Source: a virus. From it: 64,000 nt of DNA. Each line of letters opens with the position of its first letter. Positions within the stretch are counted from its first letter, which is position 1. The notes below the pieces were generated by a model, which worked only from the letters and a program-made list of their open reading frames with translations, had not been told where the DNA came from and ran no database searches. The position numbers and the translations under genes were made by a program. Below are positions 42,254-54,269 of this stretch, piece after piece. The stretch is taken from positions 35,512 to 99,511 of the IMG/VR virus record IMGVR_UViG_3300032284_001716; one strand, given 5' to 3'.

Positions 42254-43834
42254 ATGTTTGTAGCTTTTCTCCCACGACCAACACAAGTTGTTAATATTAA
42301 CTCCGGTACGAACAATGTCAATCTGTTCACGCAAGCTAATAGCCCAACATATCCATTGAATCTACTCTGCTTTATCAATGCAGCGGTAGGTTCTTCTTCT
42401 AACTCATCTCCTGCTTTCAGAACAGGCACAGGTTGGATTCCAGGTTCATACCTGTATATTCAGAATGCTAACACTGTTACTGGTGGTACCGGCCCAACAG
42501 GAAGCACTGGCTCACCTGGAAGTGTTGGCTCGCCGGGAACAACCGGTTCGCCAGGTCCGGCCGGAACACCCGGTTCGACAGGAACAACAGGAACAACAGG
42601 CGCGGCTGGTTCTCCAGGCAGTGCGGGTGCTCCAGGCCCTCAGGGTGCGCATGGCGCGGGTGGTGCTGGTGGTAACGGTGGTGCGAACTATCTTGCAGGT
42701 TCTGGTGGATCATCAGGAGCGGGTGGCTCTACTGGATCGCCCGGCGGAACCGGCGGTAACGGAAATAACGGTTCCCCAGGTGGTACAGGTGGAACAGGCG
42801 GCAACGGAAGTAATGGTACTGCCGGCGGTACAGGTGGAACCGGTGGTAACGGAACAGCCGGCGGCCCTGGTGGCGCAGGTGGTTCAGGCGGCATTGCGTT
42901 CCAAGCTGACACAGTTTCGGGACTTATCACTGTCTTAAATAACACAACTACAATTAGCGGTGGTACTGCCGGCCCAGGTGGACCCGGCGGTCCAGGTGGA
43001 GCGGGCGGCCCCGGCGGACCTGGTGGCCCTGGAGGCGCAGGCGGTGGTGCAGGCCCGGGCGGACCTGGTGGTCCTGGAGGCGCAGGTGGCGATGGCGGCG
43101 GTGGCGGTCCGGGTGGTGCAGGCGGTTACGGCGGCGGTGGCGGCGGTGGTGGCGGTGGATCTGGTGTCTACGGCCCCGGTGTTCGCTTCAATCCTTATAG
43201 TGCTATCATTTATATCACCGGTGCATCGGGCGGCGGCGGAGGCGCAAGCTATAGCTCACCTGGAGCCGGTGGTTCTGGTGGTTGGACTTATTCACCTGCG
43301 TTCTATTCACCCGCAGGTAAGGCTGATCCGCCAATCTACAATCCAGCATTTAACGTATATGCTTACAACGGTGGTGCAGCTTCTGGTGGATCCGCTGGTG
43401 GCGGTGGTGGAGGCTGGTATGGTGGTGGTGCAGGTGGTAACGGCGGTGGTATTCAATCGGCAGGTGCCGGTGGTAATCCAGGCTCTGCATCAGCATATGC
43501 TAACTATACACCGGGTGGAAAGGCGGATCCGCCAATCTTCACCGGTTATTACTACTATAACTATTGGAATGGTGGCGGTGGCGGCCCTGGTGGTGGACAA
43601 GGCGCAACAGGACCGACCGGTCCAGCGGGCAGCGCGGGTTCACCCGGCGGAACCGGTCCAACGGGGTCAGCGGGTAGTGCTGGATCGCCGGGTAGTACCG
43701 GGCCGACTGGTTCTGCAGGATCACCTGGAGGCACTGGACCAGCTGGAACACCGGGCTCGCAAGGACCTGCTATTTCAGGCAACTCAAATATTATCTACGT
43801 AAACACAGGTACAAGAAACGGACCGATAGGATAA
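42254..43834 (+). CDS. Collagen-like/glycine-rich adhesin
   Basis: 526 residues. Residues 1-75 are a globular start ('FVAFLPRPTQVVNINSGTNN', 'GTGWIPGSYLYIQNANTV'). From residue 76 a long glycine-rich part follows: G-x-y triplets ('GSTGSPGSVGSPGTTGSPGP'), a short non-glycine strand (residues 214-236), then GGx runs, two aromatic loops containing 'AGKADPPIYNP' (355-364) and 'GGKADPPIFTG' (422-431), and a final G-x-y stretch with end 'SNIIYVNTGTRNGPIG'. It could form a collagen triple helix or a polyglycine-II sandwich like the gp38 tip adhesins of T2/S16. The loops would then be receptor contacts. GC content is higher than in neighbouring genes. Confidence 0.65.
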   Translation: MFVAFLPRPTQVVNINSGTNNVNLFTQANSPTYPLNLLCFINAAVGSSSNSSPAFRTGTGWIPGSYLYIQNANTVTGGTGPTGSTGSPGSVGSPGTTGSPGPAGTPGSTGTTGTTGAAGSPGSAGAPGPQGAHGAGGAGGNGGANYLAGSGGSSGAGGSTGSPGGTGGNGNNGSPGGTGGTGGNGSNGTAGGTGGTGGNGTAGGPGGAGGSGGIAFQADTVSGLITVLNNTTTISGGTAGPGGPGGPGGAGGPGGPGGPGGAGGGAGPGGPGGPGGAGGDGGGGGPGGAGGYGGGGGGGGGGSGVYGPGVRFNPYSAIIYITGASGGGGGASYSSPGAGGSGGWTYSPAFYSPAGKADPPIYNPAFNVYAYNGGAASGGSAGGGGGGWYGGGAGGNGGGIQSAGAGGNPGSASAYANYTPGGKADPPIFTGYYYYNYWNGGGGGPGGGQGATGPTGPAGSAGSPGGTGPTGSAGSAGSPGSTGPTGSAGSPGGTGPAGTPGSQGPAISGNSNIIYVNTGTRNGPIG

Positions 43835-44308: not shown

Positions 44309-45391
44309 ATGACTCTGAGTAGAAAACTCAATGAGAATATCTTTTATTATGATGGTGCTAGGAATCTCTATAACAATAGGCACGATCTTCTAGCATCAGA
44401 GTTTTCCACTCTGAAACGCTTTTACTATTATGATAAAGAGTTCTCACAGGTAAACTGGACTAAAGAGCCAGTAGAAGATCTATGGACTCTTTATTCCAGG
44501 AGAGCCCAACAAATTAGAGATGACTTCGACTATGTCATCTTATGTTATTCAGGCGGTGTTGACTCTACCACTATCCTAGAAGCTTTCTACTATAACAACA
44601 TCTATATTGATGAGATTCTACTAGTGGGTGCTTTCTCACGGGATAAGTTTCAGGGTGATGACACCAACCATAATGCAGATTTGTACTATAATGTGCACCC
44701 TACTTTGAGGTCAATGAATCTTCCAAACACGAAGATTACAGTTAAAGACTATACAGAGTACTTCAATGATCCAAATAACTTCTCACTAATCAAAGAATAT
44801 GGCGATGACTTTGCGCTCATGCTAGGTGCGTACACTAGTGTGCATAACCTATTCTGGTATGACTTAAAGAAGTTTATCGGCGCGGATAAGACCAAGAATA
44901 CCTGCTATATTATGGGATCTGATAAACCAAAGCTATCATATGAGGCACACACAAATCGTTTCTACACTGATATGAACGATGCATCTGTGGCCGACTATGG
45001 CGCTGCGTTTGTAGATGAGAACTTCACTCGAGTTAACTTCTATACAGAGCCTAAAGCCGAAGCTATCATGAGGAAGCAGCTGCACACGCTTCTAAAGTTC
45101 TATATTCAGAATATCAATATCGATAAGACTATGACACATGATAACTTTCAGCAGCACTACATAAGCATAGTCAATGGGCTGATGTACAACCTTCGAAATC
45201 CGCTAAAGTATAAGTCTAAAAAATCAGTAATATCGTGCCTAAGTGTCAGAGATATGTTTATGTTGGAGTCACAGGACTCTGATATGTTCAAGATATATAA
45301 ACAAGCAACACTTAAATTGGACAAACGAGTTGCGTACCTCAGAAGAGGCATCCAAACTCAGAAATATTACGTAACAGAAAGTGCGGAATGA
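44309..45391 (+). CDS. PP-loop ATP-pyrophosphatase protein A
   Basis: 360 residues. The ATP-pyrophosphatase loop 'CYSGGVDSTTIL' is at 79-90. The N-terminal 70 residues ('DLWTLYSRRAQQIRDDFDYV') and the distal motif 'CYIMGSDKPKL' (199-209) are shared with two other proteins in this island (47929-49224 and 50113-51318). PP-loop enzymes use ATP to adenylate a substrate, typically a carboxylate or carbonyl, before amide or thio transfer. No glutaminase or thio-carrier domain is present. Substrate unknown; 7-deazaguanine synthesis (QueC) is unlikely because QueD, QueE and QueF companions are absent. The stop overlaps the next ATG by 2 bases. Confidence 0.65.
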   Translation: MTLSRKLNENIFYYDGARNLYNNRHDLLASEFSTLKRFYYYDKEFSQVNWTKEPVEDLWTLYSRRAQQIRDDFDYVILCYSGGVDSTTILEAFYYNNIYIDEILLVGAFSRDKFQGDDTNHNADLYYNVHPTLRSMNLPNTKITVKDYTEYFNDPNNFSLIKEYGDDFALMLGAYTSVHNLFWYDLKKFIGADKTKNTCYIMGSDKPKLSYEAHTNRFYTDMNDASVADYGAAFVDENFTRVNFYTEPKAEAIMRKQLHTLLKFYIQNINIDKTMTHDNFQQHYISIVNGLMYNLRNPLKYKSKKSVISCLSVRDMFMLESQDSDMFKIYKQATLKLDKRVAYLRRGIQTQKYYVTESAE

Positions 45392-45855
45392 CGCATCTTT
45401 TCTATTTCCTTTTATGGACACTTGTGATATATTGTATGCATAGGATCGTGCACATAGTTCCTTATATGAGCAAGATCCATGGCGATCATCACAAGCAGGT
45501 GTCCCAGGCAACGATCCGTGGTCTACACTGGACGAACCTATTCCTATACTTTGATAGCTGGAAGAGTACTGCAGACCAATGGATAACTGAGGTCATTCCA
45601 ACTTTTATTCTATGCTTAGTGTCTGGACAATGGTGGTTGATGGTATTCTACTATATTTGGGCAGCATTCATTCAAGAGTCTATTGAGCATAACGAGAAGT
45701 TTAATCTATATCCATTTATCACCAGTGGTAAATGGCACTTGATTCATCATAGAGAACCCGATAAGAATTATGGAGTATTCTTTCCCATCTGGGATATGAT
45801 ATTTGGCACGTGGAAGGGAATCGATGGCAACGCACAAGAATTGGCTAAGAAGTAA
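45388..45855 (+). CDS. Fatty acid hydroxylase/sterol desaturase-like membrane diiron protein
   Basis: 155 residues with the His clusters of this membrane diiron superfamily: His18/His22 ('HRIVH'), His31/34/35 ('HGDHH'), His101, and His117/120/121 ('HLIHH'). Hydrophobic stretches 'FLLWTLVIYCM' and 'WWLMVFYYIWAAFI' would place it in the inner membrane. It is shorter than usual members, which have 200 or more residues, but the His boxes are kept. Such enzymes hydroxylate or desaturate lipids, carotenoids or sterols. It overlaps the PP-loop A gene by four bases and PP-loop B by 32 bases. Confidence 0.7.
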   Translation: MTHLFYFLLWTLVIYCMHRIVHIVPYMSKIHGDHHKQVSQATIRGLHWTNLFLYFDSWKSTADQWITEVIPTFILCLVSGQWWLMVFYYIWAAFIQESIEHNEKFNLYPFITSGKWHLIHHREPDKNYGVFFPIWDMIFGTWKGIDGNAQELAKK

Positions 45856-46645
45856 TATCACTGATCGTAAGGATGTAGGTTTAGATCTTGATGTTACAGT
45901 AACAAAGATCGATGAGTGGAACCTTAATACACCATGGGATAAAGCTTCAGAAAATGTAGTAAAACTTATTGCTGACCTTGATAAACCAATATTCATTGGA
46001 TTAAGTGGTGGTTTAGATTCTGATTATGTCTGTACCGTATTCGAAGAAGCCGGTGTTAAGTATACACCGATAATTATCGATACACCTGGAAATCAAGATG
46101 AATTGAAGTATGCATACCAGTTTTGTAAAATCTGGGGTATAGATCCACTAGTGATCAAGAAGACTGAAGCAGAGATGCTAGGTACATACTATGATAAGAT
46201 CTTGAATGCTTGCAGTGGATATGGTCATAACTCTGTTGCCATGTATATGATCGGTGAATACACCAAGAAGATGGGTGGTGTCTATGTTATGGCTGAACAT
46301 CTAATAGATGAAAAGCCACGCGGTGGTTTTAATGTGGGTTGCAACGAGTGGGATTTCTATAACGATCTACTTCTCGGTGAGGACAATACCGTATACTTCT
46401 TCAACTATACACCAGAGATTAGCGCTGCAATGATCAGAGAATTTCCTGATTATGATGATGTGCAAAAGTCTAAAGCAGAGTTTTACGGTCTTGAATATAG
46501 GCTTAAGATGAAGTATCGTTATAGTGATTCGTACAATAAAACGTTCGGCCAATTAAGACGAACAAAGTGGTTGACACACAATCCTAACTATACGTTTGGA
46601 ACAAGAGAAGAATATCTAAATTTGCTACAATCGATGGGTGAATAA
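45824..46645 (+). CDS. PP-loop ATP-pyrophosphatase protein B (asparagine-synthase-like)
   Basis: 273 residues from the ATG at 45824, which has GGAAGGGA upstream; a TTG at 45803 would be in the previous gene. The loop 'IGLSGGLDSDYVC' is at 58-70. The following 'IIIDTPGNQDELKYAYQFCK', the 'GYGHNSVAMYMIGEY' helix and 'GGVYVMAEHLIDEKPRGGF' resemble the synthetase half of asparagine-synthase-type enzymes, without a glutaminase half. It lacks the N-terminal region shared by the other three PP-loop proteins and so is a separate branch. It may activate a carboxylate for amidation. Preceded by a diiron hydroxylase and followed by a 2OG-type oxygenase. Confidence 0.65.
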   Translation: MATHKNWLRSNITDRKDVGLDLDVTVTKIDEWNLNTPWDKASENVVKLIADLDKPIFIGLSGGLDSDYVCTVFEEAGVKYTPIIIDTPGNQDELKYAYQFCKIWGIDPLVIKKTEAEMLGTYYDKILNACSGYGHNSVAMYMIGEYTKKMGGVYVMAEHLIDEKPRGGFNVGCNEWDFYNDLLLGEDNTVYFFNYTPEISAAMIREFPDYDDVQKSKAEFYGLEYRLKMKYRYSDSYNKTFGQLRRTKWLTHNPNYTFGTREEYLNLLQSMGE

Positions 46646-47545
46646 ATGGAAGAACCTAAAGTAGAAATTGGGTCTCAACAGACTCTACTTGAAACTAAAA
46701 AGAATCTTCAGTCTTTAAGAGCTTACACCACTGAACGTGGTTGGGGAAGTGATCTTTATAGTGACTTTGAACGAGCTTATGGCAAGTATCTACTGGTTCC
46801 ATTTGATATTCCAAAGATTTTACCAAATGATCCAAACAAGTTTGTAGAGTTTTTCTTTACAAAGGGTGCAAATGCAGTAAAGATTAAGACAGATATGTTA
46901 AGTAAAGCAGGATCTGGTCAGGGTGGTAAGTCGCCGTATGTACAGATTACTAGTGTATCTGAAAAGCATTCAGACGTTTGGTCGGATAATCCAGTTCCTG
47001 AAATTTATACTGAGTTTCCAGAGATCTTCGAGCAGATTCATGAGTATATGCCATTCATCACCAGAAAGAATTTCAAATGGTTTATGTGGTCCAGCAACTG
47101 GGATGTACCACCACACCGTGATTATGGATCACAGTTAGATTGTCCAGCTGGTATTCGTATCATGTTGTTTGACAATAACCCTGAACCTACCTTGAGTATG
47201 TCAGTAGATCCGATCGATAAAGAGTACAGCCGCAAATATCCTATTATTCTACCTGATGATACCAACAGTTTTGCCTGGAATAATCTTCGTCAGAAGCACG
47301 AAAGTAGGTATATCAAGGGTCACCGCAAGATTCTCTTTATAGTTTCAGCCAAAGAGATCGGATTTATCACTAGTACGACATATGGTAAACGTACCTTAAA
47401 TCAATATGTCGATCTTCTTGATCGAAGTGTGGCCAAATATAAAGATCATGTGGTAGTGGATACCGACAATGACTATACAGACTATCTAGATTTCAATGGC
47501 ACCGAGCCTATAAATATAGTTATGGGTAACAAGGAGATTCTCTAA
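46646..47545 (+). CDS. 2OG-Fe(II) oxygenase-like protein (Asp/Arg hydroxylase type)
   Basis: 299 residues. A His-x-Asp pair lies in 'PPHRDYG' (His157, Asp159), followed by the core strand 'IRIMLFDNN', and a distal His218 in 'NNLRQKHESRY' with Arg227 in 'GHRKILFIVS'. This order fits the double-stranded beta-helix oxygenases of the aspartyl/arginyl hydroxylase group, which hydroxylate side chains or small molecules using 2-oxoglutarate. The N-terminal 110 residues are not recognised. It follows PP-loop B without gap. Confidence 0.5.
   Translation: MEEPKVEIGSQQTLLETKKNLQSLRAYTTERGWGSDLYSDFERAYGKYLLVPFDIPKILPNDPNKFVEFFFTKGANAVKIKTDMLSKAGSGQGGKSPYVQITSVSEKHSDVWSDNPVPEIYTEFPEIFEQIHEYMPFITRKNFKWFMWSSNWDVPPHRDYGSQLDCPAGIRIMLFDNNPEPTLSMSVDPIDKEYSRKYPIILPDDTNSFAWNNLRQKHESRYIKGHRKILFIVSAKEIGFITSTTYGKRTLNQYVDLLDRSVAKYKDHVVVDTDNDYTDYLDFNGTEPINIVMGNKEIL
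47509..47516 (+). promoter_or_regulatory. Possible late promoter (TATAAATA)
   Basis: Perfect TATAAATA inside the end of the oxygenase-like gene, 28 nt before the next ATG, a spacing like the other late promoters here. Its location in coding sequence lowers confidence. Confidence 0.4.
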
Positions 47546-47928: not shown

Positions 47929-49224
47929 ATGCCCCTTGTTGTTACCGGTGAAGTAGGTATATATTGGAACAAATTCGGGGAGCGTTATGCTGACACCGTA
48001 AATAAGCAGCTGCAGAAAGATACCAGTCTTCTGCAGCTTCATTGTGGTTACTACCTTTACAATGATAAAATCTACATAGATCGAAAAGATCTACTAGATG
48101 AAATGTTAGTAACACGTGATAATAATTCAGTTCAATTTATGTTCAATGAAGATGTCTTTCAAAAGATAGACTGGACAGTAGAACCAGATATTAGCCTAGA
48201 TGAGCTCTACAGGCAAAGAGCACAGCAAATCAGAGATTCTTACGACTATATCATCTTGAGTTACTCGGGTGGTGCAGACTCGCATGAAGTATTAAGTGTA
48301 TTTCTTAAGAACAATATCTTCATCGATGAAATTCAAGTAGTACATCATTACGATCTGATAAAGAAGATCGGTCGTACTACTATGGAGACAGACCCGGGTT
48401 TAGCTATGATGCTTGAGTTCGAGCGTGTTGCATTACCTACTATTAAAAAGTTAGTAGAGAAGTCACCAGGTACTAAGATTAATCTGATGGATGCATCTGA
48501 CTTTGTTGTACAAGATGTACATGGTCATAGATTCTCATTTATGGGAATGGATAAGTTCAACAATAATGCCGGCTTCATGTGTATGACTACACCATTTGTC
48601 CGCAATTTCTTTCAGCATCATCAGAATAATAAGAACCTAAATTTGGGTGGCAAGAAGGTCTGTTTCCTCCGTGGAACAGAAAAGCCAAGTCTCAAGATGT
48701 ATAGAAATAATCTGAAGTTTAACTTTACCGACGCATCGATGCATGGAACCAAGCTGATGCAGAAGGGGGATATAGATGAGATATATACTATTGAGAACTT
48801 CTTCTGGAGCCCGGATGCTCCTCTGATTCCAATCAAACAATCACATGTCATTAAGAAAGTACTCGAGCGAGATCCAAAATTCTATGCTCAGTTCATGATT
48901 AATCAAGAAAAGAATATTCGAATGACTGAGTTTAATAAACCAGGCATTGCAGAAGAGCAAGACTTCCAAAGAAAGTATACTAGAATAATCTATAGTCATT
49001 GGAACGATACTTTCTTTAAGGCTCCAAAGAAAGCTCCAGTATCTGGAGAGTTCCAAGCTGTTAAGATATTGTTCAATGACACATACTATCGAGATGCTAT
49101 AAAAGAACAGAATAACTTCTTCTTTAAGAAGTATGATTTAATCGAAGATAAGTCCTTACTTAATAAGACGCTTGCTTCATATCGTTATGATCTAGGAGAG
49201 ATGAATGTACAATGGAATGATTAG
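47929..49224 (+). CDS. PP-loop ATP-pyrophosphatase protein C
   Basis: 431 residues; no clear ribosome binding site precedes the ATG at 47929, and comparison with PP-loop D suggests a start nearer residue 38 could also be used. A conserved N-terminal region ('GYYLYNDKIYIDRKDLLDEM', 'ELYRQRAQQIRDSYDYIIL') leads into the loop 'SYSGGADSHEVL' (SGGADS 113-118). The distal motif 'CFLRGTEKPSL' is at 245-255. The C-terminal 170 residues are helical. With the following TctC gene it forms a two-gene unit that occurs again directly downstream. It is homologous to PP-loop A and D. Confidence 0.65.
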   Translation: MPLVVTGEVGIYWNKFGERYADTVNKQLQKDTSLLQLHCGYYLYNDKIYIDRKDLLDEMLVTRDNNSVQFMFNEDVFQKIDWTVEPDISLDELYRQRAQQIRDSYDYIILSYSGGADSHEVLSVFLKNNIFIDEIQVVHHYDLIKKIGRTTMETDPGLAMMLEFERVALPTIKKLVEKSPGTKINLMDASDFVVQDVHGHRFSFMGMDKFNNNAGFMCMTTPFVRNFFQHHQNNKNLNLGGKKVCFLRGTEKPSLKMYRNNLKFNFTDASMHGTKLMQKGDIDEIYTIENFFWSPDAPLIPIKQSHVIKKVLERDPKFYAQFMINQEKNIRMTEFNKPGIAEEQDFQRKYTRIIYSHWNDTFFKAPKKAPVSGEFQAVKILFNDTYYRDAIKEQNNFFFKKYDLIEDKSLLNKTLASYRYDLGEMNVQWND

Positions 49225-50113
49225 AAATGCTGCTATTGGTTTGATGATGATTGGTTCTGCATCGGCCGCAGAACAAGTAGAAATCATCTCAAGTATTCCT
49301 GCGGCTGGTTCTGGTGGACAGATTGGTGCCGGTATTACACAAATCCTGAATAAAGTACAGACTGACCGTGAGTATAAGTTCGTCGTGAGCCCGGGCGCAC
49401 AGGGCGATACATCAGCTCTCAAAGCTCTAGTTGATGCAAAGACTCAGAATGTAGTGATGTTTAATGGTATCTCAGTGACTACCACTAACAGACTTCTGAA
49501 TCCTAATGCAGGGTTTGATCGCGATAAGGACTTCATTCAGAGTATTGGTATTGGTAAGAACTACTATGCCATTATGGTGAATCCAGACTCGCCTATTAAG
49601 AATGTTGATGACCTAGTGAAGTCTATCAAGAGCAAGCCGAAGGCTTTCTTCTCGACTACATTGACGGCGCCGGGTTCTGTTATCATCAATGACATCTTCC
49701 TGAAGAGATACGGTATCACCAATAAGGTTGAATCGATTAACTATAAGTCGCCACAGGAGATTATCCTAGCTCTGAACAACAAAGAGTCAGATTATACTAT
49801 CTTTACGGTGTCTGATATGACTAATCTGAAGGCTATCATGGTATCGTCAGAGAAGCGCCTGATTCAGTTCCCTGATGCGCCAACAGCTAGGGAAACCGGG
49901 TTCGATGCGTTCTCGCTATCATCTATTCTTATGTTCTCTATTCCTAAAGATCGTGCCGCGTTTCAAAGAACATTTGAAGAGGACATGAAAAAAGTGTGTG
50001 CACACCCAGACTATGAGCGTATTGCCAATATTCGTGCTCCATATCGTTCAGAATGCATGACTCCAGCTGATACTATGGCTACTGTCGAAAACGAATTGAA
50101 GACTATCAGATAG
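49205..50113 (+). CDS. tctC: TctC/Bug-type solute-binding protein 1
   Basis: 302 residues. AGGAG six bases before the ATG at 49205 supports this start. The N-terminus 'MIRNAAIGLMMIGSASA' is a signal peptide (cleavage likely after ASA or SAA). The rest follows the TctC family: 'VEIISSIPAAGSGGQIG' early, 'VVSPGAQGDTSALKALVDAK', 'YYAIMVNPDSPIKNVDDLVK', 'FFSTTLTAPGSVIINDIFLK' and 'FPDAPTARETGF'. TctC proteins are periplasmic receptors for organic acids in tripartite tricarboxylate transport. The membrane subunits TctA and TctB are not in this window, so it would need a host transporter. It overlaps PP-loop C by 20 bases. Confidence 0.75.
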   Translation: MYNGMIRNAAIGLMMIGSASAAEQVEIISSIPAAGSGGQIGAGITQILNKVQTDREYKFVVSPGAQGDTSALKALVDAKTQNVVMFNGISVTTTNRLLNPNAGFDRDKDFIQSIGIGKNYYAIMVNPDSPIKNVDDLVKSIKSKPKAFFSTTLTAPGSVIINDIFLKRYGITNKVESINYKSPQEIILALNNKESDYTIFTVSDMTNLKAIMVSSEKRLIQFPDAPTARETGFDAFSLSSILMFSIPKDRAAFQRTFEEDMKKVCAHPDYERIANIRAPYRSECMTPADTMATVENELKTIR

Positions 50114-51318
50114 TGTATACTACAAGCAATGGTTACTATCTTTATAACGACAAGTGCTTCTTCACACGCGAGGAAGTACTTGACGAGATGTTGCTTAATA
50201 AAGACTATGATGGATCCTTTGAATTCAAATTCAACGATGAGGTTTATTCAGAACTCAACTGGCAGGTAAACACGTATCCTCCATTGAGACAGCTGTATAA
50301 AATAAGAGCACAGCAGCTTAGGGACAAGTATGATTACTTGATATTATCATATTCTGGTGGAAGTGATTCTACAGAAGTATTAGAGACGTTTTTAAGAAAT
50401 AACATATTCATCGACGAGGTTCAGGTTCTGAACTTTGAATCCCTATTTTCAAAGGCTAGATTATCTTCTGACCTACATTATTTTCTTGAGTATAGACTAT
50501 CAGCTGTCAGCGGCTTGAAAAGAATTAAAGAGTTTAGCCCTAATACTAAGATCACAATTATCGATGCATCGAACTTCCTGTTCGATCAGGTAGTCAACAA
50601 TAAATTTGAGATGTTAGGTATCGATAAAGAGAAACCTTCAGTTACATTATTAACAGGCTCTAGTGCTCGCTCGACTAACTACTATATGCAAAGGTATAAT
50701 GAGAAAAATACCAATAAACAGAACTCATGTTTCATCAGAGGTTCAGAGAAGCCGTCCTTAAGTATTGAAGACAGTAAACTTTACCATTCATTCTACGATA
50801 TATCGATGAATGGATACTCATACAGAACTGATCCCTATCAAACAGAACTGTTCTTTTGGTCTAAAGATATGCCAATGATTGTACTAGCACAGATTCAAGT
50901 ATTGAAGACGGCACTAGAGAATAATAAGACTTTCTACAATCTCTTTTTGCATATGCAGGTATTATCAAAGCAGCATATCATTCAGAAGTTAAAAGGATAC
51001 TCTCCGGCTGTCAACCTTGAAAGAATGTATTCATACTTCATATACGATCATTGGGGAAAGAATAGCTTTAACTCAGAAAAGATTATCTATAAGTCACCTG
51101 AGTTTGAGCTTATTAAATCTATAGCAGGGCGGCACAGCGGATATGAAGTAATGACTGAAAAAAACAACTTTTATAAAAATAAATACAGCCTGATCAACAA
51201 TCAATACCTACTAAGCAAATTCAAATTTGGACAAAGATATTATGTCGGGGAGTTACAGTTAAATCATGATAAGGATCTTAATAAGTCTTCTGTTATTATG
51301 CTCAACGGCAAATGCTAA
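50113..51318 (+). CDS. PP-loop ATP-pyrophosphatase protein D
   Basis: 401 residues from a GTG start that shares one base with the TctC 1 stop. 'GYYLYNDKCFFTREEVLDEM', 'QLYKIRAQQLRDKYDYLIL' and the loop 'SYSGGSDSTEVL' (SGGSDS 81-86) match PP-loop C closely, as does 'CFIRGSEKPSL' (206-216) with the nearby 'SMNGYSYRTDPYQTELFFW'. It is the second PP-loop gene of the duplicated unit. It overlaps the following TctC gene by 53 bases. Substrate unknown. Confidence 0.65.
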   Translation: MYTTSNGYYLYNDKCFFTREEVLDEMLLNKDYDGSFEFKFNDEVYSELNWQVNTYPPLRQLYKIRAQQLRDKYDYLILSYSGGSDSTEVLETFLRNNIFIDEVQVLNFESLFSKARLSSDLHYFLEYRLSAVSGLKRIKEFSPNTKITIIDASNFLFDQVVNNKFEMLGIDKEKPSVTLLTGSSARSTNYYMQRYNEKNTNKQNSCFIRGSEKPSLSIEDSKLYHSFYDISMNGYSYRTDPYQTELFFWSKDMPMIVLAQIQVLKTALENNKTFYNLFLHMQVLSKQHIIQKLKGYSPAVNLERMYSYFIYDHWGKNSFNSEKIIYKSPEFELIKSIAGRHSGYEVMTEKNNFYKNKYSLINNQYLLSKFKFGQRYYVGELQLNHDKDLNKSSVIMLNGKC

Positions 51319-52012
51319 AGATATTGATATTATTACTAGGTTTGGAAATTCATCTGTTGCTACAAGAAATCTGATTGAATATGTTTATGTGTTGAATGGT
51401 ATTCAATCAGATTATACATTCAAAGTCGTGTCTGCACCGGGGGCTAGAGGTGAGGTTGCAGATCTTAAAGCTAAGATGATAGCTGAAACCAATGATGTTT
51501 TAATATTCAACTCTACTTCATCATATACAAATAAATCTAGTGAAGGTATCATCCCTCTTTATAGTATATGGGGATCGCCGCAATCTATTATGGTTGCGCA
51601 AGATTCGCCTATCCAAACTATAGATAACTTCATTAAATTTGCTAAAGCAAAACCAAACCTTTACTATGCTACAGAGGATAATGCCTCTGGATCGGCTATA
51701 TTAAACAATCAATTGATAAAGGAATTTGGTCTTAAGAATGTAGTTAATCTAAGCTATAAAAGCATAGGTGATGCAAAGAAAAGCATACTGATTGGCGAAG
51801 CGGATTATACCATCTTTAATGTTAATGAGATGATAGGTCTAAAATCTATCAAGTATTTTGACTATATGACAGAGTCAATGATGTCTGTGCCGGCCACCAG
51901 ATTGGAATTTGGTAGCCGGCTTAAACCGATATTCATGGCAGCGTGTAACGATAAAGCTTATATAGAAAAGCTTGTTAAAACTGGTTACACGTCTGTATGC
52001 AAAGAAAAATAA
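51266..52012 (+). CDS. tctC: TctC/Bug-type solute-binding protein 2 (short)
   Basis: 248 residues, shorter than the usual 300-330. Signal peptide 'MIRILISLLLLCSTANA' is followed by 'KDIDIITRFGNSSVATRNLI'. Recognisable TctC parts are 'VVSAPGARGEVADLKAKMIA', 'GSPQSIMVAQDSPIQTIDNF', 'FAKAKPNLYYATEDNASGSA' and 'SYKSIGDAKKSILIGEADY'. The segment corresponding to the C-terminal 'DAPTARETG' loop is shortened, so binding specificity may differ. The stop directly abuts the stop of the convergent gene at 52013. Confidence 0.65.
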   Translation: MIRILISLLLLCSTANAKDIDIITRFGNSSVATRNLIEYVYVLNGIQSDYTFKVVSAPGARGEVADLKAKMIAETNDVLIFNSTSSYTNKSSEGIIPLYSIWGSPQSIMVAQDSPIQTIDNFIKFAKAKPNLYYATEDNASGSAILNNQLIKEFGLKNVVNLSYKSIGDAKKSILIGEADYTIFNVNEMIGLKSIKYFDYMTESMMSVPATRLEFGSRLKPIFMAACNDKAYIEKLVKTGYTSVCKEK

Positions 52013-52627
52013 TTAGGTAAACTTAGGACCGACAACCCAGATTACGATCGATCGACGCGTACCCTTTGTTATCGGCTTCACGCGATGAATCATAAATGAG
52101 GGGAAGAGAATGCATCTTCCTTTCTTAGCATCAACGGTAATAGGTTCATTCTCCATACCGTTATTGATCTGAAACTCGCCACCCTCAAAATCGTCGTTCA
52201 GTAAGAACGTCAGTGATAACTTACGTGTGTCATGCATATTCTGTGGCATGTGACCCATGCCCATATCCATATGCCAATCATACTTTCCCTCTTCATCAGA
52301 GTTGTAGACTGTATATTGGAAAGCATCGTATCCGTTCAACTCAAATCCATAGTACATCTCATTGATGCTCTGGATGACAAAGTTAAATTTATCAAAGATC
52401 CATGCAGTCTCTGGTGTACGTGCGTGGAACTTTACATTCGACTTACGGACTCTCTCGGTTTCCTCTTGAGTGCCGGAGAATGTGGTACCACGTTCAGTTC
52501 CCTGTTCTTCACAGTAATTAAGTACTGCCTGAATCTCTTCCTCAGTAAAGAGGTCGTCCCAGAATGACCATGGGTGCGTGATACGTGAACGATTATACGG
52601 ATCGTTATAGATTGTTGTGTACTTCAT
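52013..52627 (-). CDS. 2OG-Fe(II) oxygenase (prolyl 4-hydroxylase/PKHD type)
   Basis: 204 residues. The oxygenase signature is complete: 'YDWHMDMG' (His119, Asp121), 'RKLSLTFLLNDDFEGGEFQI', 'GRCILFPSFMIHRVKPITKG' (His181), and 'RRSIVIWV' (Arg191). Enzymes of this group hydroxylate proteins or small molecules with 2-oxoglutarate and Fe(II); phages of aquatic bacteria often carry them. The ATG overlaps the stop of the upstream gene by four bases (52624-52627). Third gene of a leftward unit that starts near 54269. Confidence 0.85.
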   Translation of the reverse strand: MKYTTIYNDPYNRSRITHPWSFWDDLFTEEEIQAVLNYCEEQGTERGTTFSGTQEETERVRKSNVKFHARTPETAWIFDKFNFVIQSINEMYYGFELNGYDAFQYTVYNSDEEGKYDWHMDMGMGHMPQNMHDTRKLSLTFLLNDDFEGGEFQINNGMENEPITVDAKKGRCILFPSFMIHRVKPITKGTRRSIVIWVVGPKFT

Positions 52628-53313
52628 TTACGGAAAATTCTCCAATTAGACGATGGCTGAATGCCTGTAGGTTTTGCTTCCACTTTTCTATAGGTAAAGA
52701 ATACGTCACCTGCAAGACAAACTCTCTTCTGTTTAAGATCATCTAAACTCTTGCAGCCTTCATCAAACTCAGAATTACCATAACCAACAGTGTGATGACT
52801 CAACCTTGCAGGGAATACGAAAAGATTTCCCTCAGTCGGGGCAAAGCCTGTGTCATATGCGTTAAACTTGTTAACCTCGGTAGAGTTAAACCTGATCATC
52901 CCATAGTATGGGTCATTCATGTGTGGAGGTGTTGACGAGAAGACAATAGGTTTCTCAAGTTGATCCGGAATGTTAGCATAGTATGTGAATGAAAGATGAG
53001 CATCTTCATGGCTATGGAAAGGTGTGTGTCTTTCCTTGGTGATGTTCATCCAAGTCTTAACAATGTTAATATCAAAGATTTCAGGATCGATAGCAAGAGT
53101 ACGAAGATACTCTTCAATAGAGCCAGTAATATATCCAAACAACGGCGCAAAGGCTTCCTCATGGTGGATATTGACGTGACCAGTATACTCATTCGAGTAA
53201 CCGTCAACAGTCATATACTTCATGAGTTTGCTTAGGAAGATCGGCTTGAACTTATCAGCATCCCTATACTGATCTTCAAGAACTAGTGTTGGAAAGAGTG
53301 CATGTCTAATCAT
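52624..53313 (-). CDS. 2OG-Fe(II) oxygenase-like protein (second, 2OG-FeII_Oxy_5 type)
   Basis: 229 residues. The start 'HALFPTLVLEDQY' is typical of this oxygenase group. 'TPFHSHEDAHLSFTYYANIP' carries His102-x-Asp104, 'NLFVFPARLSHHTVGY' gives a distal His (173 or 174), and 'KRVCLAGDVFFT' gives Arg197. The order matches 2OG-Fe(II) oxygenases next to it, though overall similarity is low. It lies between TctC 3 and the PKHD-type gene, overlapping both by four bases, so the three are one unit. Confidence 0.7.
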   Translation of the reverse strand: MIRHALFPTLVLEDQYRDADKFKPIFLSKLMKYMTVDGYSNEYTGHVNIHHEEAFAPLFGYITGSIEEYLRTLAIDPEIFDINIVKTWMNITKERHTPFHSHEDAHLSFTYYANIPDQLEKPIVFSSTPPHMNDPYYGMIRFNSTEVNKFNAYDTGFAPTEGNLFVFPARLSHHTVGYGNSEFDEGCKSLDDLKQKRVCLAGDVFFTYRKVEAKPTGIQPSSNWRIFRK

Positions 53314-54269
53314 CTATTGGCCTCATTTAACCTTTTCAGTTTTTCAACAAAAGCGTCGTCTACACGAATCACATACTTAACTATATTGAGGGCTTCATCG
53401 TGGTAGATCGGATTGACCTCTATGTTCATCTTTCTTGCTTCCTCTAGATACTCAGAGTCCATTACGGCTTTCGTAAAAGCTTCACGCAGTTCCTGAGCAT
53501 TCTTTTCAGGAATTCCTGGAGGGGCGACAAATGGCCTTAACATAGCATAGCTTGCCTCCACAATAGATAGTATTGTTTTGTCTGTATCTAATTGTACCAT
53601 CTCAGCGAGAGTCTGTACATCTTTATATTCTATGTGTCTATGAATACCGTTACCAAACTGCATGCATGCATTGATACCTGAATCTGGCTTAAGCCAGTTA
53701 GGCTTCTGCGTCTTGATACCAACTAGATTATAAACTACAGCATCAACCTCTTTTCTCTCGAGAGCCATTCTGGCATCTCCGGGAGTTGCATAACCTGTAA
53801 CGATCTTAGCATCTAACTTAGCTATATCACGAACTAGGAAAGCCGGATTCACACCTGCATAGTTCTCTGATCCGATGATCTTTGGATTATCCGTGTTGCA
53901 CCACATGATAACTGCATCCTTACGCCCGTCGACGTTTGAACCAATCCATGTGAATTTAGTAGCATCAAATTGTACGTTAGGGACGTGTAGTGTACCGACT
54001 AATGGAATTTCCTTGTAGAAGGTGCCGATGACCGACCCATCCTTAGGTGCAATATTGTATAGGTAGTTGGCTGCAACCAGGCTGGCTGCCCCAGGCATGG
54101 ACTGAATAACTAGTGTCGGTTTGTTAGGAAGATATTTGACCAGATACTTACCAAGCACTCTGGCATTGATATTGTAGCTATCGTTGTCTGATGGGACGAT
54201 AATCTTTAGGGTTTCTGCCGCAGCCGGCGTGACCATTAGGGTCAAAGCGAGGATAATCGCTCGAAACAT
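53310..54269 (-). CDS. tctC: TctC/Bug-type solute-binding protein 3
   Basis: 319 residues, full family length. Signal peptide 'MFRAIILALTLMVTPAAA' is followed by 'ETLKIIVPSDNDSYNINARV', then 'LVIQSMPGAASLVAANYLYN', 'DGSVIGTFYKEIPLVGTL', 'FTWIGSNVDGRKDAVIMW', and 'FVAPPGIPEKNAQELREAFT' with 'MDSEYLEEARKMNIEVNPI'. This is the most conventional TctC of the three and is on the opposite strand from the other two. First gene of a leftward unit with a late promoter motif 40 nt upstream. No TctA/TctB is present. Confidence 0.85.
   Translation of the reverse strand: MFRAIILALTLMVTPAAAETLKIIVPSDNDSYNINARVLGKYLVKYLPNKPTLVIQSMPGAASLVAANYLYNIAPKDGSVIGTFYKEIPLVGTLHVPNVQFDATKFTWIGSNVDGRKDAVIMWCNTDNPKIIGSENYAGVNPAFLVRDIAKLDAKIVTGYATPGDARMALERKEVDAVVYNLVGIKTQKPNWLKPDSGINACMQFGNGIHRHIEYKDVQTLAEMVQLDTDKTILSIVEASYAMLRPFVAPPGIPEKNAQELREAFTKAVMDSEYLEEARKMNIEVNPIYHDEALNIVKYVIRVDDAFVEKLKRLNEANR

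Follow-up and report, generated by a model that had tools for sequence, protein, structure and literature searches.

A phage-associated PP-loop protein family linked to TctC-type binding proteins in exchangeable cassettes, a candidate uptake module

Introduction

Virus-encoded transport components are known from several systems; cyanophages, for example, carry PstS. Viral contigs have been found to encode amtB together with a porin and glnK (PMC8115048), and a tctA domain match was reported on a SUP05 viral contig (PMC4164917). In bacteria, the binding proteins of tripartite tricarboxylate transporters (TTT) are mostly "orphans" and are thought to share a TctA (PMC5994714; PMC8556258). No account of a phage gene pair joining a PP-loop protein with a TctC was found in the literature surveyed, which included few subscription journals and preprints. 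Here we describe such pairs in a stretch of 64,000 nt (the window), which spans bases 35512-99511 of a virus record 99,511 bases long, and their distribution among uncultured viral genomes.

Results

An accessory island rich in PP-loop and TctC-like genes

The window encodes terminase, portal, sheath, head-tail connector and baseplate proteins and, by its gene content, derives from a contractile-tailed T4-like phage. An accessory island at 44.3-54.3 kb, bounded by the neck genes on one side and, close to the tail genes, by a gene for a collagen-like protein, contains four PP-loop (PP) genes, three TctC-like genes, one fatty acid hydroxylase-like gene and two 2OG-Fe oxygenases. The genes of the island, called as simple open reading frames here as in all the other loci, which are uncultured and possibly fragments, are the following:

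44309-45391, plus strand: PP3, a PP-loop paralogue (29% identity to PP1, E 1e-27) overlapping the fatty-acid-hydroxylase-like gene downstream
45388-45855, plus strand: fatty acid hydroxylase-like membrane protein (PF04116, E 6e-17)
45803-46645, plus strand: PP4, a shorter PP-loop/Asn-synthase-like protein (PF00733 at E 4e-4, slightly below cut-off; recovered by the iterated PP profile)
46646-47545, plus strand: conserved protein without family (no Pfam or convincing PHROG match; kept in the related phages L003 and L004)
47929-49224, plus strand: PP1, a PP-loop (N-type ATP pyrophosphatase-like) protein of 431 aa, with SGGADS at residues 113-118
49205-50113, plus strand: TctC1, a predicted secreted TTT-type solute-binding protein (PF03401, 48 bits; signal-peptide-like N terminus)
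50113-51318, plus strand: PP2, the PP-loop protein in the second cassette, divergent and with a GTG start, assigned by homology to PP1
51266-52012, plus strand: TctC2, a shortened (248 aa) TctC-like protein, predicted secreted, assigned by homology to TctC1 and by fold matches
52013-52627, minus strand: 2OG-Fe(II) oxygenase (PF13640, E 6e-16)
52624-53313, minus strand: second 2OG-Fe(II) oxygenase-like protein (PF13759, E 5e-9)
53310-54269, minus strand: TctC3, a third TctC-like protein, predicted secreted, tied to both 2OG oxygenases and not to a PP gene (iterated phage TctC profile, E 9e-76; PF03401 at 16.3 bits, below the 27-bit cut-off)

The minus-strand unit at 52013-54269, which combines the two 2OG oxygenases with a TctC and has no PP gene of its own, is conserved in many related phages. 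The collagen-like Gly-X-Y protein (42254-43834) is encoded less than 10 kb from the 2OG-Fe oxygenases (52013-53313), and prolyl hydroxylation of a collagen-like virion fibre by these enzymes is possible.

The initial annotation of the window had described two adjacent units of a PP-loop gene and a TctC-like gene with overlapping ends, and coordinates and homology bear this out. PP1 and PP2 are 38% identical over 389 aa (E 9e-84), TctC1 and TctC2 share 31% (E 2e-28), and the overlaps are of 20 nt between PP1 and TctC1 (8 nt if TctC1 begins at the in-frame ATG at 49217) and of 53 nt between PP2 and TctC2. The second cassette begins on the final base of the first, the start of PP2 being the last base of TctC1 (50113). 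The PP-loop motifs SYSGG.DS and CF.RG.EKPSL were located as had been claimed. PP3, PP4 and TctC3, as well as a porin-PP pair that lies in the same record outside the window, are additions to that description.

Separate exchange of the two cassettes

The further proposal of a tandem duplication did not hold, since approximately unbiased (AU) tests rejected pairs 1 and 2 of the window as closest relatives (p 4e-4 for PP and 1e-5 for TctC). Two related phages (L003 and L004) have the same island layout as the window, and in all three the first pair is orthologous, with 80-90% identity in TctC and 58-59% in PP. The second slot holds three different cassettes, for which a single clade was rejected (p 1e-82 and 3e-7): the second pair of L003 groups with that of L029 and the reversed pair of L023/L024, and those of the window and L004 are distinct. 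Because the second-slot cassettes do not form one clade and the pairs of the window are not sisters, the slot is best read as a site of whole-cassette exchange. On this phylogenetic evidence the two units are anciently diverged, separately exchanged cassettes.

Within the first pair, dN/dS relative to L003 was 0.2 for PP1 and 0.056 for TctC1, at a dS near saturation; as estimated from these substitution rates, both genes are under purifying selection. With 59% identity in PP against 90% in TctC, the enzyme diverges much faster than the receptor, not the pattern expected if both simply shared one fixed substrate.

Linkage and co-variation of PP and TctC genes

An alignment-seeded PP scan of IMG/VR returned 196 stretches with relatives, of which the best 80 were kept. 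A TctC lay directly downstream and on the same strand in 32 of the 33 close PP genes having a downstream neighbour, with gaps of -53 to +17 nt and mostly overlapping; in the one exception (L022) it was six genes further on. Over all PP-seeded loci, TctC was the next gene after 41 of 164 PP genes and after 16 of the 1195 remaining genes (P 2e-27, odds ratio 25). Since related loci share ancestry, such P values exaggerate how many independent events underlie the linkage. The genetic tie between a PP-loop enzyme and an organic-acid receptor, first noticed in the window, is strongly supported by the many other phage genomes in which the pair was found.

The distance matrices of PP and TctC correlated with r 0.87, a value reached in 0 of 2000 permutations. 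Five loci have two close pairs each; among the 32 within-genome swaps possible there, the highest correlation came from the native PP-TctC pairing, a result that points to co-variation beyond the common descent of the genomes. The histories of PP and TctC agree, at variance with an origin of the TctC genes from unrelated sources.

A phage-associated PP-loop family

The SGGxD[ST] signature was kept in 245 of 253 distinct PP proteins, and G114, G115 and D117 were invariant across 94 members. The AF2 model of PP1 (pLDDT 91.3) was matched by Foldseek to GMP synthetase and LarE with a probability of about 1.0, at an E of only 2.6e-3 and a whole-chain TM of 0.2-0.3; GMP synthetase, LarE, NadE and carbapenam synthetase were all weak structural matches of its core, at E about 3e-3. 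The nearest structural kin were unannotated proteins from uncultured phages (E 5e-38). Signature and modelled core fold place the PP proteins in the PP-loop/N-type ATP pyrophosphatase superfamily. No convincing Pfam or NCBIfam match to a known subfamily (QueC, NadE, AsnB, LarE, TilS) was obtained among the 94 members, no PHROG family claims the protein, and the PP profile gave only chance matches among PDB sequences. A pattern scan of one genome each of 84,980 prokaryotic species, by which distant kin can be missed, returned no relatives; none was found in plasmids or among INPHARED phages. The scan seeded with PP1 alone also returned none, and it was the alignment-seeded scans that recovered the relatives described above. 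Judged by these comparisons, PP is a new phage-associated PP-loop family with a putative catalytic role.

Properties of the TctC-like proteins

TctC1 scored above the PF03401 cut-off (48 vs 27 bits) and TctC2 slightly below it (25.8), and the TctC family profile matched a terephthalate-binding protein at E 1e-62. TctC2 is devoid of the C-terminal tail and of an internal stretch near the usual PT..E.G loop; it was modelled as a two-domain binding protein of the TctC/Bug type (pLDDT 91.7), with TphC, AdpC, Bug27 and BugD among its best PDB matches. A signal-peptide-like N terminus was recognised by a hydrophobicity rule in almost every complete phage TctC, among them the three of the window.

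The ligand loop P-F-x-A-G-G-x-x-D, a motif of TTT binding proteins (PMC8556258), is degenerate in most phage TctCs, only 19 of 114 fitting a loose form of it, and TctC1 reads SIPAAGSGGQIG at this position. The ligand class is consequently uncertain and perhaps not that of a classical dicarboxylate. TctC1 also has two cysteines near its C terminus (C265 and C284; about 49997-50056 in the window), a pair common to the close PP-linked TctCs and invariant in an alignment of six sequences. TctCs encoded on plasmids were merely 24-28% identical to those of the phages, and INPHARED matches to TctC, TctA and DctP were below 30% identity and in short unannotated or bacterial-looking records.

Association of PP genes with TctA, porins and DctP

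Scanning with TctA as seed gave 21 non-redundant loci, 8 of which had a PP gene no more than two genes away (P 0.002 vs random genes of the same loci). The orders observed were PP-TctA-TctC (L058, L102), porin-TctA-TctC-PP (L107 and L089, the latter a 343,632-base record), TctC-TctA-PP (L108) and TctA-PP (L101, L109); adjoining PP and TctA genes were separated by -14 to +9 nt. Genes for terminase and a gp23-type major capsid protein on the 343,632-base record, among others, identify these records as phages, and a 157,933-base record has TctB-TctA. TctA occurred in 2 of 22 records, one of them with TctB; none was found in the 99.5 kb record of the window, itself possibly a fragment. Bacterial orphan TTT binding proteins share few TctA carriers, which makes it plausible for a phage TctC to lack a carrier of its own. 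A tryptophan-halogenase-like protein (L090:5100-6677; PF04820, E 1e-84) is encoded two small genes upstream of a phage TctB-TctA.

Outside the window, at about 25.0-29.1 kb of the same record (L091:5005-9095), an outer-membrane Porin_2 gene, a fifth PP-loop gene and a SPASM radical SAM gene were detected, the porin gene (about 25.0-26.4 kb) overlapping the PP gene by 1 nt. All six loci of a Porin_2-seeded scan, four of them new, had PP directly downstream; besides L091, the loci with a porin directly upstream of PP include L093, L045 and L130-L133. No relatives of the phage Porin_2 were returned from prokaryote genomes by pattern scan, by which distant kin can be missed. We take the presence of Porin_2 to suggest that the host of the phage belongs to the Alphaproteobacteria.

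A DctP-seeded scan returned 448 stretches. Among the 64 distinct loci examined, PP lay within three genes in 48 and TctC was present in 31; in 42 loci the distance to PP was at most two genes, a count that random genes from these loci reached in 20.5 on average and in 33 at most. In L149 and L169 the order was PP-TctA-TctC-DctP in a row. DctP-family proteins that start directly at the mature domain were observed in hundreds of phage contigs (L061:10195-11154; L135-L214). By the hydrophobicity rule, 62 of the 64 distinct phage DctP-like proteins have no signal peptide, and they are probably cytoplasmic. No DctM was found in the 22 records examined, and on these two negatives we reject the idea that the phage DctP belongs to a TRAP transporter.

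Uptake proteins are not the sole partners of PP. Of 145 PP proteins, 51 had no detected uptake partner and 16 were paired with a fatty acid hydroxylase instead; relatives of this hydroxylase were found in 25 loci, and pairs of the kind that it forms with PP3 recur in about 16. In L092 (9474-10467) an APS-kinase-like gene is followed by DUF2061, which recurs beside PP genes, and a sulfur link of these neighbours is possible.

Discussion

A model for solute uptake and use

On balance, we lean towards reading each unit as a phage-borne cassette for the uptake and use of a solute. TctC would be exported into the periplasm of the infected Gram-negative cell, bind a small solute (most likely an organic acid, judging by the family) and pass it to a TctA-type carrier, which would be the host's in the phage of the window and phage-encoded in others. 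The cytoplasmic PP-loop enzyme would then spend ATP on the same imported solute, by adenylation followed by amidation or a similar transfer. Different cassettes may serve different solutes, which would explain both the presence of two or more cassettes in one phage and the swapping of the second slot between related phages. The cytoplasmic DctP-like protein may, as a guess, buffer the imported acid or hand it over. The gene arrangements that add TctA, a porin or DctP favour the idea of capture, import and subsequent action. More tentatively, and with considerable doubt, the PP family could be the core of a modular and exchangeable virus-encoded nutrient pathway, leading from the porin to TctC/TctA and on to a cytoplasmic DctP-type carrier and the PP enzyme, with a product that the host alone does not make.

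Other explanations start from the surroundings of the cassettes. The porin, TctC and TctA of the phage might alter the host surface or occupy receptors and carriers, in a form of envelope remodelling or superinfection exclusion in which PP modifies an envelope molecule together with the fatty acid hydroxylase, radical SAM or 2OG oxygenases. The majority of PP partners are indeed envelope proteins, PP genes are also paired with the membrane fatty acid hydroxylase and with DUF2061, and the island lies downstream of tail fibre-like genes; yet solute-binding proteins, like the TctA carrier, are components of solute uptake, and DctP homologues without signal peptides should be cytoplasmic and not change the envelope, so we regard this explanation as unlikely. 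It is also quite unlikely, in our view, that PP and TctC merely reside together without joint function, as host-derived accessory genes gathered in a hypervariable island beside tail fibre genes. The other accessory genes of the island (fatty acid hydroxylase and 2OG oxygenases, with radical SAM in relatives) and the swapping of cassettes between phages agree with such a gathering, against which stand the fixed gene order with overlapping ends and almost invariable adjacency, a co-variation of PP and TctC that exceeds within-genome swaps, and the fact that the same PP family adjoins TctA, porin and DctP in differently arranged genomes.

Two functional alternatives concern the fate of the ligand. 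TctC and DctP could be nutrient sensors, with PP making or destroying a signal that would adjust the timing of infection to the nutrient state. Signalling is among the roles that TTT binding proteins can have (PMC5994714), and a cytoplasmic DctP without DctM fits a sensor or carrier better than transport, but we saw no regulator or histidine kinase among the genes of the cassettes, and TctA and porins indicate bulk uptake; we give sensing little credence. Least credible to us is NAD salvage, in which TctC would import nicotinate or quinolinate for a NadE-like amidating PP enzyme, possibly against an NAD-depleting defence. Bug27 and Bug69 bind nicotinate/quinolinate (PMC11452294), NadE is among the weak structural matches of PP1 and a cytidylyltransferase-like gene lies upstream in many distant loci; against this, a NadE family match was absent in Pfam and NCBIfam, GMP synthetase and LarE match PP1 as well, and the upstream cytidylyltransferase reads, by sequence, as closer to TagD than to NadD.

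If the uptake-and-use reading is true, a widespread phage uptake system, with 196 IMG/VR stretches containing PP relatives and 448 a DctP relative, has seemingly gone unnoticed, and large phages would bring in selected solutes for their own enzyme, beyond reusing host nutrients. The neighbouring binding protein would then offer a direct route to the substrate of the PP enzyme.

Comparison with known systems

The phage TctCs share the fold and secretion signal of the TctC/Bug proteins of tripartite tricarboxylate transporters (PF03401; TphC, Bug27, BugD, AdpC); many retain the PGAxG loop and, likewise, they may occur as orphan genes without their own TctAB. They differ in adjoining a phage-associated PP-loop gene, in the mostly degenerate PFxAGGxxD loop and in the unusual shortness of TctC2. 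With the N-type ATP pyrophosphatases (GuaA, NadE, LarE, asparagine/carbapenam synthetase, QueC) the PP proteins have in common the SGGxDS PP-loop and core fold, but they measure about 400 aa, have a C-terminal half peculiar to the family (GxDKP, FYWxPD and KQAH motifs), are matched by no family model and had no bacterial homologue by pattern scan. The phage DctP-like proteins match the TRAP solute-binding protein DctP (PF03480) over their full length (E 2e-46), and most copies retain the arginine of GxKxRxxxxPV; unlike TRAP DctP, nearly all are devoid of a signal peptide, and DctM was not found in the 22 records.

Set beside the phage auxiliary uptake genes described so far (PstS, amtB-porin-glnK and the SUP05 tctA), the PP-TctC module is, in our interpretation, a phage auxiliary uptake module built around a new enzyme family. 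It has in common with them a virus-encoded transport component and a presumed boost of uptake in the infected cell, and is distinguished from them by the tie of that component to a phage-associated enzyme family, in many genomes and in exchangeable cassettes.
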